In this document: positions 17,776-22,695 of the stretch, piece by piece
How the letters are laid out: every line of letters begins with the position of its first letter
Numbering within the stretch: position 1 is the first letter of the stretch
NCBI GenBank assembly: GCA_030696455.1
Contig: JAUYSH010000046.1
Location: 1-47,905 of the forward strand
DNA length: 47,905 nt
Reading direction: 5' to 3'
From: Elusimicrobiota bacterium
GTDB taxonomy: Bacteria > Elusimicrobiota > Elusimicrobia > UBA1565 > UBA9628
Notes under the pieces: model-generated
The model's input: only the letters and a program-made list of their open reading frames with translations
Databases searched by the model: none
Told to the model about the DNA's origin: nothing
Made by a program: the position numbers and the translations under genes

Positions 17776-18672
17776 TCAGCGGCTCTTCCGGCACGCCCAC
17801 GGCGTCTTCTTGCGCAGCAGCGCCTCCAGCGCGTCGCGAAACACCCCGTCGAGCCGCCCGTCCGGATACTTATGGCGCATCGCCGCCTGGGCTTCTCTCA
17901 GGAGCCTATGGAATGAGGCGTCCGCCGTGAAACCGACGCGGATTCCGGGCTCCGCGGCGGCCGGACCCACGGGGGCCGGCTTCGGATGACCCTGCGTGGG
18001 CTCGGGGATTTTCGCGACGGATCGAGTCTCGGCGGGAGAAGCGACCGTCAGTTCTTCGTCGGGCTGGGCGGCGGCCGGAATTGTCATGTCGGGCCCGGTG
18101 ACGGGGGCGGGGGGAATGTCGGCGAGGGGAAAGGCGGCCGGCACGGACGCGGCGGGTGGATCGAATAGCGATGCCGCCGTTTCGGCTTCGGGCTTGAGCG
18201 GGACGGCAAGGATGGGAGCCGTGAATCGCACGACGTCTCGACGCGGTTCTTCCGTCCGGCGGACGGCGACCAGCCGTTCGACTTCCCAGGTCCTTTTGCC
18301 CGCCGCTTCAGTCACCAATTTGCCCGCGTCAACGTCGTTGAGGAAGGGATGAAGCAGGGCCAGCGACTCGAGCGTGAGCTTCCCGTCGCGCAGCAGCGGC
18401 TTGACCGGAGGGTACGCTTGGAACGCCCTGGCCGCGCGGATGCGTCGATAGGCTGCGGCCTCGGACATGCGAAGCCTATAGGTGCAATACTCGAATAGCG
18501 AGGCGCACTGAAATTCACGGTAGAGTTTGCGCCGGTCCATCTCGGCGAGGCTTTCGACCAAGTCGCAGGTTCTCTCCCGCAGGTCGGCGGCCAGTTCTTC
18601 CGTGTAGCGAATCAACTCATCATCGGTCAGTTTTTGGATATCCACTATCGTCGTCGCAACTGTTGTCAACAA
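17776..18672 (-). CDS. HNH-endonuclease-family protein lacking its HNH domain
   Basis: The N-terminal 110 residues match the conserved region preceding HNH nuclease domains in a broad bacterial family: LIRYTEELAADLRERTCDLV, then DRRKLYREFQCASLFEYCTY, RLRMSEAAAYRRIRAARAF, and LTLESLALLHPFL. A Pro/Ala/Thr-rich linker of about 100 residues follows, then FTADASFHRLLREAQAAM and DGVFRDALEALLRKK, which normally lead into the HNH motif. The protein stops there, and only 18 bp separate it from mlaD, so the nuclease domain is absent. I chose the TTG at 18672 because AGGAGGAGG sits 8 nt upstream; a further ATG 40 codons upstream has no such site. Possibly a decayed nuclease or a DNA-binding derivative. 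Confidence 0.72.
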   Translation of the reverse strand: MLTTVATTIVDIQKLTDDELIRYTEELAADLRERTCDLVESLAEMDRRKLYREFQCASLFEYCTYRLRMSEAAAYRRIRAARAFQAYPPVKPLLRDGKLTLESLALLHPFLNDVDAGKLVTEAAGKRTWEVERLVAVRRTEEPRRDVVRFTAPILAVPLKPEAETAASLFDPPAASVPAAFPLADIPPAPVTGPDMTIPAAAQPDEELTVASPAETRSVAKIPEPTQGHPKPAPVGPAAAEPGIRVGFTADASFHRLLREAQAAMRHKYPDGRLDGVFRDALEALLRKKTPWACRKSR

Positions 18673-18688
18673 CAGTCGCGCCTCCTCC
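18659..18688 (-). promoter_or_regulatory. Shine-Dalgarno and start-overlapping palindrome of the HNH-like gene
   Basis: On the minus strand, GGAGGAGG (18681-18688) is followed 8 nt later by the TTG start (18672-18670). An inverted repeat ACTGTTG-TCAA-CAACAGT (18659-18676) covers the start codon and could be an operator or an RNA hairpin. Confidence 0.5.
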
Positions 18689-18804
18689 TGGGGATAAGCC
18701 GCATAACCTCGCGGCCGCCCCTTATCATACGATCGAGCCCCCCGAAAAGTTTCATGGCGCGAGGGCTTTTCCCGGCCGCTATGGCTATTCACGCGGGCCC
18801 ATGC

Positions 18805-19270: not shown

Positions 19271-20662
19271 ATGGCTCGACTTAAAACCGTCTTCCGCTGC
19301 CAAGCTTGCGGCCACTCGGCCAGCAAGCCGATGGGGCAATGCCCCGGCTGCTCCGAATGGAACACGATGGCCGAGGAGGTCGTCGAGACGAGGCCCGGCG
19401 GCCTCGCCGAGGCGGTGTCCGAGGCGCGCGGCCAGCTGACCTCCTTCTCCTCGGCGGTCACCGCGCTCAAGGACGCGAGTGCCGCGCCCGAGCAGCGCAC
19501 GCCCGTCGGCATCGCCGAGCTCGACCGCCTGTTCGGCGGCGGCATCGTCCCCGGCCAGGTCATCCTGCTCGCGGGGCCTCCCGGCATCGGCAAGTCGACG
19601 CTCATGCTGCAGGCCGCGGCGAAGCTCGCCGAGAAGGGGCCGTTCCTGTACGCCTCCGGCGAGGAAAGCCTGCGCCAGGTCTCGAGCCGCGCCAAGCGCC
19701 TGGGGCTGACCTCGGAACAGCTCTACCTCGTGTCCGAGTCCTCGCTGTCGAAGATCCTCGCCGCGATGGAGCAGGTCAAGCCGTGGGCGATGGTGCTCGA
19801 CTCCATCCAGACGGTGACCCACCCTCAGCTCATGTCGAGCCCCGGCTCCGTCGGCCAGGTGCGCGAGTGCGCCGCCGAGCTCGTGCGCGCGGCCAAGAAG
19901 AACGACACCATCGTCTTCCTCCTCGGCCACGTGACGAAGGACGGCTCGCTCGCCGGCCCCAAGGTGCTCGAGCACATCGTGGACACCGTACTGTACTTCG
20001 ACACCGAGAACCATGACCTGCTGAGAGTGCTGCGCGCCCAGAAGAATCGTTTCGGCCCGACGGATGAATTGGGCCTTTTCGAGATGGGCGAAAAGGGTCT
20101 CACGGAGGTCAAGGACGCCACCGCCTTCTTCGCCGCCGAGCTCGGCCGCGCCGCCGCGCCGGGCCGCGCGGTGTCCGTCGCCCTGGAAGGCTCCCGGCCG
20201 GTCCTGGTCGAGGTCCAGTCCTTGGTCGTTTCCACGCGCTACCCGCTTCCCCGCCGCATGTCCACGGGCCTCGACCTCAACCGCGTCCTGGTCCTCCTCG
20301 CGGCGATGGAGCGGCACATCGGCCTGCGCCTCGAGGACCGCGACTGCTTCGTCAGCCTTGCGGGCGGCCTGCGCCTCAAGGACCCCGCCCTCGACCTGGC
20401 CGCCTGCCTCGCCGTCGCCGGCTCGTGGCGGGAGAAGGCCGTCCCCTCCGACATGATCCTGCTCGGCGAGGTCAGCCTGCTCGGCGAGGTCGGGCGGATT
20501 CCTCAGCTCGAGCTGCGCCTGCGCGAGGCGGCGAAGGCCGGTTTTAAACGAGCGGTGGTTCCCTCAAGAGCGGCCAAGGACCTGCCCAAGACGCTCGGCC
20601 TGAGCGTCACCGGCGTCTCGGACCTGCGTGAAGCGGCGGAAGCCGCATTCGGCGCCGAGTAG
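19271..20662 (+). CDS. radA: DNA repair protein RadA (Sms)
   Basis: RadA is a RecA-related DnaB-like helicase that promotes branch migration in recombination and repair. The 463-aa protein has an N-terminal zinc finger (Cys10, Cys13, Cys24, Cys27 in CQACG and CPGCSEW), Walker A GPPGIGKST ending near residue 110, the RadA-specific KNRFG motif at residues 258-262, and a C-terminal Lon-like domain (LGEVSLLGEVGRIPQLELRLREAA region). The length is normal. I start it at 19271, with the conserved ARLKTVFRCQACG N-terminus and the promoter 6 nt upstream. Its last 36 bp recur at 21551-21586. Confidence 0.96.
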   Translation: MARLKTVFRCQACGHSASKPMGQCPGCSEWNTMAEEVVETRPGGLAEAVSEARGQLTSFSSAVTALKDASAAPEQRTPVGIAELDRLFGGGIVPGQVILLAGPPGIGKSTLMLQAAAKLAEKGPFLYASGEESLRQVSSRAKRLGLTSEQLYLVSESSLSKILAAMEQVKPWAMVLDSIQTVTHPQLMSSPGSVGQVRECAAELVRAAKKNDTIVFLLGHVTKDGSLAGPKVLEHIVDTVLYFDTENHDLLRVLRAQKNRFGPTDELGLFEMGEKGLTEVKDATAFFAAELGRAAAPGRAVSVALEGSRPVLVEVQSLVVSTRYPLPRRMSTGLDLNRVLVLLAAMERHIGLRLEDRDCFVSLAGGLRLKDPALDLAACLAVAGSWREKAVPSDMILLGEVSLLGEVGRIPQLELRLREAAKAGFKRAVVPSRAAKDLPKTLGLSVTGVSDLREAAEAAFGAE

Positions 20663-20665
20663 GCC
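20630..20665 (+). repeat. Direct repeat, copy 1 (radA 3' end)
   Basis: These 36 bp cover the last ten codons of radA, its stop and a few bases beyond. They match 21551-21586 at 31 of 36 positions. The stem GCGGC-GGAA-GCCGC inside has a GNRA-type loop. Confidence 0.75.
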
Positions 20666-20680
20666 GAAAATCCGGCAACC

Positions 20681-20703
20681 CATAGGTCCTATGCCTCTAG
20701 GAC
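20681..20703. other. Two mutually exclusive hairpins in the radA downstream gap
   Basis: CATAGG-T-CCTATG (20681-20693) and GTCCTA-TGCCTC-TAGGAC (20686-20703) share bases, so only one can form at a time. The second covers the -35 region of the next gene's promoter. They could be an operator or an RNA switch. Function is unproven. Confidence 0.45.
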
Positions 20704-20720
20704 TGCCCGCCTCGCCTCGC

Positions 20721-20726
20721 TACAAT
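20721..20726 (+). promoter_or_regulatory. -10 box (TACAAT) for the exported-protein gene
   Basis: TACAAT is 8 nt before the ATG at 20735. No Shine-Dalgarno lies between. The local sequence GCTACAATCGAT also occurs at the 29245 promoter. Confidence 0.55.
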
Positions 20727-20734
20727 CGATTGCC

Positions 20735-21547
20735 ATGAAGCGTTCATCGGTATCTGCGCTCATCCTCTCGGCCGCGCTCGCAAACGCGGCCTTGGCCCAG
20801 ACCTTTTCCGCGGGAAGGGCCGGCCCTTCCGTCAAATCCTCCATCTCCGGCGCGGCCGGGGTCGCGCTCGCGCCTCCCGTTCTCAAGGCTTCGGTCCCTC
20901 TCCTTCCGGCGGCTCTGAGCGCTCCCAGCTTGACGCCCGTGCCCTCGGCGCCGGCGGCGGCCTCGCCGGCTTCGGCGGCGCCCGCCCTCCCGTCCCTGCC
21001 CGCCGGCGTGCTCGTCGTGCGGGCGGACAGGGCTGAGGCGCCTCTGACGGAGGAGCAGTTGCAGAGTCTTCGCCGCCTGTATCAACGGAACGGGCTGATC
21101 CGCGAGAACCTGGAGCGCATGGCGCGACAGTGGGCCGAACTGGGCGTGTCGGCCTGGACCGGCGAAATCATCGAGCGCAGCCGTCGCTGGGACCGCTTCT
21201 CCGATGTCGAGGGCGTGGAGGCGGCCGTCGAACGAGACGCGCGGACCCGAGAGGGAATTCTCGTCGGGCAGTTGCGACTGCTCTCCCGTTTGGACCCGCT
21301 CGAGGCCCCGCCGCGCCTCGTCGCCGAGACCTTCCCGCTCATGCTCACCGTCGGGCGGCATCCGAAGATGACGGTTGACCACGCGCGGCGTCTGCAAAGT
21401 TGGCTTGAGGATGTCGAGGCACGGCTGGCGTCTTCAGGGCTGACTCTCAACTCCTATCTCTCCCGCCCCGGCAGCCTCGATGCGCTGAGGGCCTTGATCG
21501 CGGATATGCGCGAAGCCGGAAACTTCGCGCTCTGGCTTCCCGAATAG
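20735..21547 (+). CDS. Exported protein with Ala/Pro/Ser-rich leader, unknown function
   Basis: The 270-aa product starts with a signal peptide (MKRSSVSALILSAALANAALAQ), followed by about 80 residues of Ala/Pro/Ser/Leu low complexity, then an alpha-helical domain from about residue 105 (LTEEQLQSLRRLYQRNGLI, MARQWAELGVSAWTGEII, LEDVEARLASSGLTLNSYL) without cysteines. I recognise no family for the domain. The leader type matches the protein at 4808-6184. The whole gene, with its promoter, lies between two imperfect direct repeats derived from the radA 3' end, as if inserted there. Confidence 0.68.
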   Translation: MKRSSVSALILSAALANAALAQTFSAGRAGPSVKSSISGAAGVALAPPVLKASVPLLPAALSAPSLTPVPSAPAAASPASAAPALPSLPAGVLVVRADRAEAPLTEEQLQSLRRLYQRNGLIRENLERMARQWAELGVSAWTGEIIERSRRWDRFSDVEGVEAAVERDARTREGILVGQLRLLSRLDPLEAPPRLVAETFPLMLTVGRHPKMTVDHARRLQSWLEDVEARLASSGLTLNSYLSRPGSLDALRALIADMREAGNFALWLPE

Positions 21548-21550
21548 GGC

Positions 21551-21586
21551 GAGGCGGCGCAAGCCGCTTTCGGCGCCGAGCAGACC
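21551..21586 (+). repeat. Direct repeat, copy 2 (decayed radA 3' end)
   Basis: It matches the last 36 bp of radA at 31 of 36 positions. Translated in the matching frame it reads EAAQAAFGAE, against EAAEAAFGAE in radA, and the radA stop TAG is CAG here. Of the three differences before the stop codon, two are synonymous. It is probably a relic of coding sequence. The hairpin stem is kept with a GCAA loop. Confidence 0.7.
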
Positions 21587-21650
21587 CGGGCCCCTTTTTA
21601 ACGGCGTGTGGAAGGGGCACTTCTTCGCCTTATGGCTCAGTCGTTTTTCG

Positions 21651-21690
21651 TAGAATACAGCGTTCATTCCTTTATAACCTCCGTCGGAGG
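21651..21690 (+). promoter_or_regulatory. -10 box and Shine-Dalgarno hairpin upstream of the PIN-TRAM gene
   Basis: TAGAAT (21651-21656) would give a leader of about 34 nt. The leader holds CCTCC-GTC-GGAGG (21678-21690), a hairpin that buries the GGAGG Shine-Dalgarno 6 nt before the ATG at 21697. This could hold back translation until the stem melts. Confidence 0.5.
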
Positions 21691-21696
21691 CATTCC

Positions 21697-22695
21697 ATGT
21701 ATACCGTCATCTTCCGCGTCGCCGTCATCCTCATCTGTCCCGCCATCGTCTATTTCGGCGACATCGCGCGCACGCCCGTCGGCCTCGGGATCGGCCTGGC
21801 CGTCGGGCTCGTCATCGTCGGCATCGAGTACCTCGTCGCCGAGCTGAACCTGCTGACCTTGATCACCGGGGTGCTCGGCATCGCGGTCGGCATCATCGTC
21901 TCCCGGCTCGTCGACTACTCGGTCTTCCAGATGGGCAACGAGGAGATCTACAAGGTCTGGGACAAGTACTCCCTGCTTCGCTTCTTCGCGTTCGGCGTGC
22001 TCGGCCTCGTGATCGCCCTGCGCAAGGCGCCCGAGCTCGACGACCTGGACAAGGACCTGCTCAAGATGGGCAAGAAGCGCGGCTCCGACCTCAAGATCCT
22101 CGACTGCAACGCGATCATCGACGGCCGCGTCGCCGAGATCGTGGAGACGCATTTCCTGTCGGGGTCCTTGGTGGTCCCCCGCTTCGTGCTGACCGAGCTG
22201 CACCGCCTCGCCGACGCCGAGGACCCGATGAAGCGCGCCCGCGGCCGCCGCGGCCTCGACGTGCTCGCGCGCCTGCAGGAGGGGCATTTCGTGCCGGTGC
22301 GCATCCTCGACAAGGACATCCCCGAGATCTCGGAGATCGAAGGCAAGGTCGTCAAGCTCGCCCGCGAGATGGGCGCCAAGATCGTCACCACGGACTTCAA
22401 CGTCAACAAGGTGGCGACACTCGAGGGCGTGACCGTGCTCAATGTGAACGACTTGTCCTCGGCCCTTAAGACGGTGGTGCTGCCCGGCGAGACGATGAGC
22501 GTGTTCGTCATGAAGGAAGGCAAGGAGCGCGAGCAGGGCGTGGGCTTCCTGGACGACGGCACGATGGTCGTCGTCGAGGACGGCCGCCGCTCGGTGGGCA
22601 AGCGCCTGGAGGCGACGGTGACGTCGATCCATCAGACCTCCAACGGCCGCATGATCTTCGCGAAAGCCAAGCCGGCGGAGCGCGCGGCGGTCTGA
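21697..22695 (+). CDS. PIN-TRAM domain membrane protein (YacL-like)
   Basis: The 332-aa product has about four N-terminal membrane helices (residues 1-112, including LAVGLVIVGIEYLVAE and FFAFGVLGLVIAL), a PIN nuclease-like domain (about 130-255) and a C-terminal TRAM RNA-binding domain (about 265-325, GETMSVFVMKEGKEREQGVG). Seen acidic PIN residues: Asp in KILDCNAIIDGR, Glu in LTELHRL, Asp in IVTTDFNVNK. The family resembles Bacillus YacL and is probably a membrane-tethered RNase; substrates are unknown. It commonly lies next to ispD/ispF, as here. The stop overlaps the ispDF start by one base (TGATG). Confidence 0.9.
   Translation: MYTVIFRVAVILICPAIVYFGDIARTPVGLGIGLAVGLVIVGIEYLVAELNLLTLITGVLGIAVGIIVSRLVDYSVFQMGNEEIYKVWDKYSLLRFFAFGVLGLVIALRKAPELDDLDKDLLKMGKKRGSDLKILDCNAIIDGRVAEIVETHFLSGSLVVPRFVLTELHRLADAEDPMKRARGRRGLDVLARLQEGHFVPVRILDKDIPEISEIEGKVVKLAREMGAKIVTTDFNVNKVATLEGVTVLNVNDLSSALKTVVLPGETMSVFVMKEGKEREQGVGFLDDGTMVVVEDGRRSVGKRLEATVTSIHQTSNGRMIFAKAKPAERAAV

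Follow-up and report, generated by a model that had tools for sequence, protein, structure and literature searches.

An apparently inserted exported-protein gene at the 3' end of radA, and a dispersed two-hairpin repeat beside it, in an Elusimicrobiota genome

Genomic islands and other integrative elements insert in the 3' ends of genes, among them tRNA and tmRNA genes and some protein-coding genes. Illegitimate recombination, including its homology-facilitated form, occurs in natural transformation. The locus described here, behind radA in a member of the Elusimicrobiota, resembles the gene-end elements in that the radA end is restored, a direct repeat lies on the far side and relatives have empty sites. 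Unlike them, it is a single case, the cassette measures only 0.9 kb and has no recognised recombinase, and one lineage-specific base is common to both cassette repeats. It is also comparable to products of illegitimate or homology-facilitated illegitimate recombination, being a one-off gene insertion at a short homology with orphan cargo, but differs from these in that no donor is known, the radA end is native-looking and about 35 bp are duplicated. Adjacent to the cassette lies a second element, here called R, for which the closest described systems are small palindromic mobile repeats. As reviewed in PMC2229807, these include the RPE of Rickettsia, NEMIS, ERIC and REP, with RPE lengths of 105-146 bp. 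R is likewise short, forms hairpins, occurs at scattered places both between genes and within them, and is sometimes read in frame; it differs in its length of 55 bp, its two hairpins and its lack of TA ends, in its restriction to the family of the host among 58 genomes and in the absence of an Rfam match. A shallow search of literature naming Elusimicrobiota returned nothing pertinent to its repeats or cassettes, which is weak evidence for the novelty of the R family.

The window, by which we mean the whole 47,905-nucleotide stretch analyzed, is contig C147 of a 4.0-Mb genome in 147 contigs. It contains an intact radA gene encoding 463 aa (19271-20662, plus strand; Pfam matches to KaiC, AAA_25, zinc-ribbon and ChlI). 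A sequence-only reading of this DNA had proposed that the end of radA recurs downstream, and the repeat is real: positions 20630-20665 and 21551-21586 are identical at 31 of 36 sites with a spacing of 921 bp. Placed in register with relatives, the copies span 20628-20662 and 21549-21583 on the plus strand, that is, 35 bp with five differences. The left copy still codes for the radA end, and the right copy, which begins 1 bp past the stop codon of the inserted gene, is a decayed radA tail in which the stop TAG has become CAG. When random 36-mers were compared with their next 1500 bp, the best match averaged 20.6 sites (sd 1.5, maximum 30); none of 3756 reached 31 and one reached 28 or more. The window contains 17 direct-repeat families within 3 kb, of which D2 alone (88% over 52 bp, 8914/9031) is as good as the radA repeat and the remaining 15 are at most 77% identical. 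No further tail copy was found in the window, where the right copy matches only itself at up to three mismatches and the best other places reach 23/36 on the same strand. The search of the host genome for extra copies likewise found none by BLAST, with 40 of the 318 candidates scored and 36 bp at 86% identity being near its detection limit. A GNRA-looped stem that had been pointed out in the repeat proved not to be notable (folding z-scores of -1.9 and -0.7).

Comparison of the region downstream of radA across relatives shows that empty sites exist. The search set comprised 58 genomes, including the host, all of which contain radA matches; those in G022, G047, G050 and G054 are weak only and may be paralogues. 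By radA, the nearest named relatives are uncultured Elusimicrobia or Elusimicrobiota genomes, several of them from groundwater to judge by their titles. From this search 30 loci were fetched, one of which (L013) is the window's own. The closest radA of all (95% over 322 aa) belongs to G008, whose locus (L034) stops at a contig edge inside radA, before the junction, and the PIN gene was not found there. The junctions were aligned with three sister genomes (G015, G016 and G003). These alignments break exactly at the radA stop, ending at 20662 and restarting at 21646, with 10 bp between in the relatives. The stretch absent from all three is thus 983 bp long (20663-21645). Beyond it lies the usual neighbor of radA, a PIN/TRAM-type gene (21697-22695, plus strand), identified by Pfam matches below cut-offs and by gene order in relatives.

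In 30 relatives, radA is followed after a short gap by the PIN/TRAM-type gene and the cassette is absent. Taking one locus per genome, 14-158 bp separate the match ends in 28 of them; the match to the PIN protein in L035 does not begin until residue 124. The gaps of 66 bp in G001 and 99 bp in G011 represent two more empty sites. The genus includes 18 other genomes, of which 17 are testable; the gap is short in 16, and the gene is missing from this place in all 17. Together with 14 genomes of the family and order, this gives 31 readable relatives, and the cassette is absent behind radA in every one. Neither the inserted gene behind radA in all relatives nor the 36-bp repeat at many gene ends was seen. 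The cassette was found behind radA only in the host genome, and for this reason its junctions are not comparable between strains. Reuse of the same element or repeat site was not found in the host genome, the radA loci or 340 genomes of the phylum.

Two neighboring observations concern other sequences. In G010, a different insert of 377 bp lies directly after the radA stop (L053 5228-5604); it is rich in inverted repeats, with arms up to 126 nt, and the cassette gene has no match in G010. The same intergenic spot behind radA has been hit independently in that lineage. In the window, a 338-aa frame on the minus strand (17776-18792) has a weak DUF222 match below cut-off. The stretch around it is unaligned in several relatives and largely aligned in G003; it may be a further insertion, confined to certain species.

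As the sequence-only reading had stated, the inserted gene (20735-21547, plus strand) sits wholly between the two repeat copies. Its 270-aa product has a signal peptide (MKRSSVSALILSAALANAALA-Q, read by eye), an Ala/Pro-rich linker and a helical C-terminal part. This is the only stop-free frame over its length. The codon score is -0.04 per codon, against -0.60 (sd 0.08) for shuffled sequence and 0.40 and 0.69 for radA and the PIN gene, both of which were in the training set; codon usage is coding-like yet atypical. The protein matches no Pfam family at cut-off and none in NCBIfam or PHROGs. Among the 340 phylum genomes, host included, three sister species have N-terminal matches and G224 has one that is weak and partial; there are no others. 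No relative was found in phages and plasmids, nor in a species-genome collection and viral contigs, where the scans reach close relatives only. A single-sequence structure model (mean pLDDT 53.9) predicts the helical C-terminal part with low confidence and was judged too weak for a fold search.

The N-terminal matches extend into the upstream DNA. The region before the inserted gene (20663-20734, plus strand) contains the block TAGGTCCnnnGCCnCT (20683-20698) and a -10-like TACAAT (20721-20726) located 8 nt upstream of the ATG, from which we infer a nearly leaderless transcript. The block recurs with equal spacing before exported-protein genes of G000, G003, G010, G015 and G016, lying exactly 22 nt upstream of TACAAT (20683-20726 in the window; also L086 and L150-L153). 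Without mismatches, the pattern occurs at six places in five genomes, all before exported-protein genes with nearly leaderless starts: the inserted gene accounts for one of the six, a related gene in each of G000, G003, G015 and G016 for four, and a similar one in G010 for the last. Two more hits with one mismatch fall in G018 and G002. The block and TACAAT are perhaps a dedicated promoter or activator site. A regulon of exported genes was considered and rejected on the count of two mismatch-free promoter blocks in the host genome; at three mismatches, the block gives six hits versus two for a reversed control.

The related gene is open over 537-540 codons in G003, G015 and G016 and over at least 496 codons in G000, where the locus ends. 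Counting from TAGGCC, its 5' region resembles the inserted DNA at 65% over 204 bp in G003 and at 63% over 294 bp in G015; for five copies, the similarity is 54-65% over about 330 bp. The first 60 aa of the inserted gene show 38-47% identity to the copies in G000, G003, G010, G015 and G016, whereas the four sister copies share 72-88% among themselves. The inserted gene is thus not a recent offshoot of a resident copy. Recent duplication of the resident gene was also rejected as a source on DNA grounds, the 5' region being 60% similar to the host's own copy versus 62-65% to those of the sisters.

The reading we favor, and consider probable, is a single illegitimate insertion event at the stop codon of radA that duplicated a tail of about 35 bp. 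A segment would have entered by illegitimate recombination, end joining or template switching at that codon, the trinucleotide TAG being common to the radA stop and to the TAGGCC that opens the related promoter region (G003, G015). TAG is a putative microhomology at the left junction, and any microhomology at the right one is likewise conjectural. The radA tail would have been duplicated on entry, with the near copy keeping radA intact and the far copy then decaying. The inserted gene would be expressed from its own promoter to give an exported protein, with radA and the PIN gene kept intact, and R would have been inserted by a separate event. A duplication of 35 bp is long for simple end joining and counts against this reading.

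The differences between the tails bear on where the second copy came from. Of the 35 sites, four in the left copy and three in the right depart from G016, and the copies differ from each other at five. The three changes seen only on the left are all silent. The two seen only on the right comprise one amino-acid change (E to Q) and the lost stop, which bears out the proposal that this copy is former radA coding sequence. One change is common to both copies: GCC (Ala) where relatives (G001, G003, G006, G007, G015 and G016) have GTC (Val). GCC in both tails leans towards duplication in place, although only one site is involved and GCC is also present in G013. The pattern of changes fits duplication within this lineage followed by release of the right copy from selection, an argument resting on that one site.

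Site-specific integration would explain several of the same features. A small non-autonomous element or island remnant would have carried a replacement radA tail, and the repeats would be its attL and attR. The restored gene end with a remnant at the far side is as expected, as is a compact cassette whose stop codon lies 1 bp before the right repeat, and copies that differ at 5 of 35 sites are what an element-borne tail would give. Against this, no recombinase was recognised in the 983-bp stretch, in which the 270-aa gene and three frames of 82-217 aa were compared with Pfam at cut-off. No relative of the gene was found among phages, plasmids or viral contigs, and its phylum matches are N-terminal or weak and partial. 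In addition, no second place with the repeat was found at the limited sensitivity of the search, and the GCC common to both copies also speaks against an imported tail. We regard site-specific integration as unlikely. Of the earlier proposal of integration at the radA 3' end, the insertion stands on the empty sites in relatives, whereas a recombinase that targets gene ends is not supported.

Similarly doubtful is homology-anchored uptake, in which a donor radA end together with the gene would have paired within radA and the right side been joined by microhomology. This would account for the diverged left tail. A seven-site run inside radA gives it a possible anchor: seven consecutive informative sites (20362-20456) match G010 and not the sister trio (Fisher p = 0.009, with no correction for the number of relatives, six, or of windows that were compared). 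Of 235 sliding similarity windows, the six highest, which overlap one another, lie at 20295-20655. The run is possibly a small recombination patch. It ends about 200 bp short of the junction, however, and of the informative sites past 20456, 15 are like the sister trio, three like G010 and one like neither. Moreover, G010 carries another insert at this place, without a match to the inserted gene. Among the lineages in the set, no donor-derived homology touching the junction was found; the last 200 bp or so of radA are native-like, and the radA end beside the junction looks native. Recombination between two radA versions, as the sequence-only reading had offered, is not borne out, given a patch that stops short and an end that is sister-like. 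A foreign radA end, to which the sliding windows beside the insertion seem to point, is rejected as the main reading on the site-by-site list, which places the patch well inside radA, with a native-looking end.

Whether R belongs to the same event depends on its own distribution. R is a 55-bp dispersed repeat (21589-21643, plus strand), a separate element inside the 983-bp difference that lies between the dead radA tail and the next promoter. The host genome has 11 copies. R occurs in 17 of the 58 genomes, namely 14 of 19 in the genus (host included) and three others of the family. In the fetched loci (the window copy, L002-L008, L044-L046 and loci among L059-L085 and L092-L126), 74 copies were recognised, both between and inside reading frames. 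Rfam gave three hits on 20600-21760, all below the gathering score and none on R.

The proposed structure was evaluated on 59 copies of equal length against 500 shuffles; kinship of the copies can inflate the counts. There are 48 cells changed on both sides, compared with 16.6 in shuffles, and eight pairs with such changes, compared with 4.0, neither count being reached in any shuffle. Further pair types number 13 versus 12.0 in shuffles, with 120 of 500 as high, and are more numerous in two slid versions of the structure. One slid version also reaches seven double-change pairs. The fraction of cells paired (82%) and the covariation score (0.205) are both highest for the structure itself. In helix 2, the two middle pairs are unpaired in 51 and 50 of the 59 copies and form in eight and nine. 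In the first stem, a compensatory swap distinguishes two copies whose flanks look alike by eye, L099 and L101 (G003 and G016). Judged from sequence, R is a mobile element present in dispersed copies, with two hairpins and compensatory changes.

Orthologous sites provide evidence of movement. No R was found in 18 stretches from G003, G015 and G016 matched to seven host copies, and R-sized gaps are seen at the sites of L002, L005 and L006. L008 shows such a gap less cleanly, and variable sequence surrounds the remaining three. Since these empty sites lack only an R-sized piece, R appears to be mobile on its own rather than a demonstrated carrier of genes. A REP/RAYT origin was rejected: no R lies within about 2 kb of a Y1 gene at 16 loci (G000, G003, G010, G015 and G016), nor was one found near Y1 transposase genes in another set of 30 loci. 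Y1 genes are present in 44 of the 58 genomes, and only part of their loci were read for R. A crude, uncalibrated codon test of the 74 copies does not show R to be a regular in-frame insert in general: four are in frame, one is in the same frame with a stop, ten are on the same strand in another frame, one is between opposite strands, 31 have one side coding, 23 neither, and four are too near an end. One copy, in the exported-protein gene of G015, is antisense and read through within the 540-codon open frame (L012 1835-1890, minus strand).

That the cassette and R arrived as one unit, with R as the recombination site, is very unlikely: the two are adjacent and both are missing from the empty sites, but the aligned orthologous sites of other R copies lack only the repeat and no gene. 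It is more improbable still that the cassette belongs to an undescribed class of such units lacking an integrase, which would enter the 3' ends of genes through a trans-acting enzyme and duplicate about 35 bp of tail, with R maybe part of the same traffic. Least probable is an ancestral gene that the relatives have lost, as could happen through recombination between the repeats; its low first-60-residue identity to the copies would suit an old or fast-changing gene, yet parsimony makes loss in 17 testable genus members and 14 genomes of the family and order unlikely.

A special integration mechanism behind the cassette is not supported. What the locus provides is a clear example of a species-specific exported protein gained with the neighboring core gene unharmed. 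The inserted gene has a promoter and an export signal akin to those of another exported-protein gene, and the remainder is orphan sequence. More interesting than the cassette, and most worth following, is R, a structured mobile repeat whose sites can be seen both occupied and empty.
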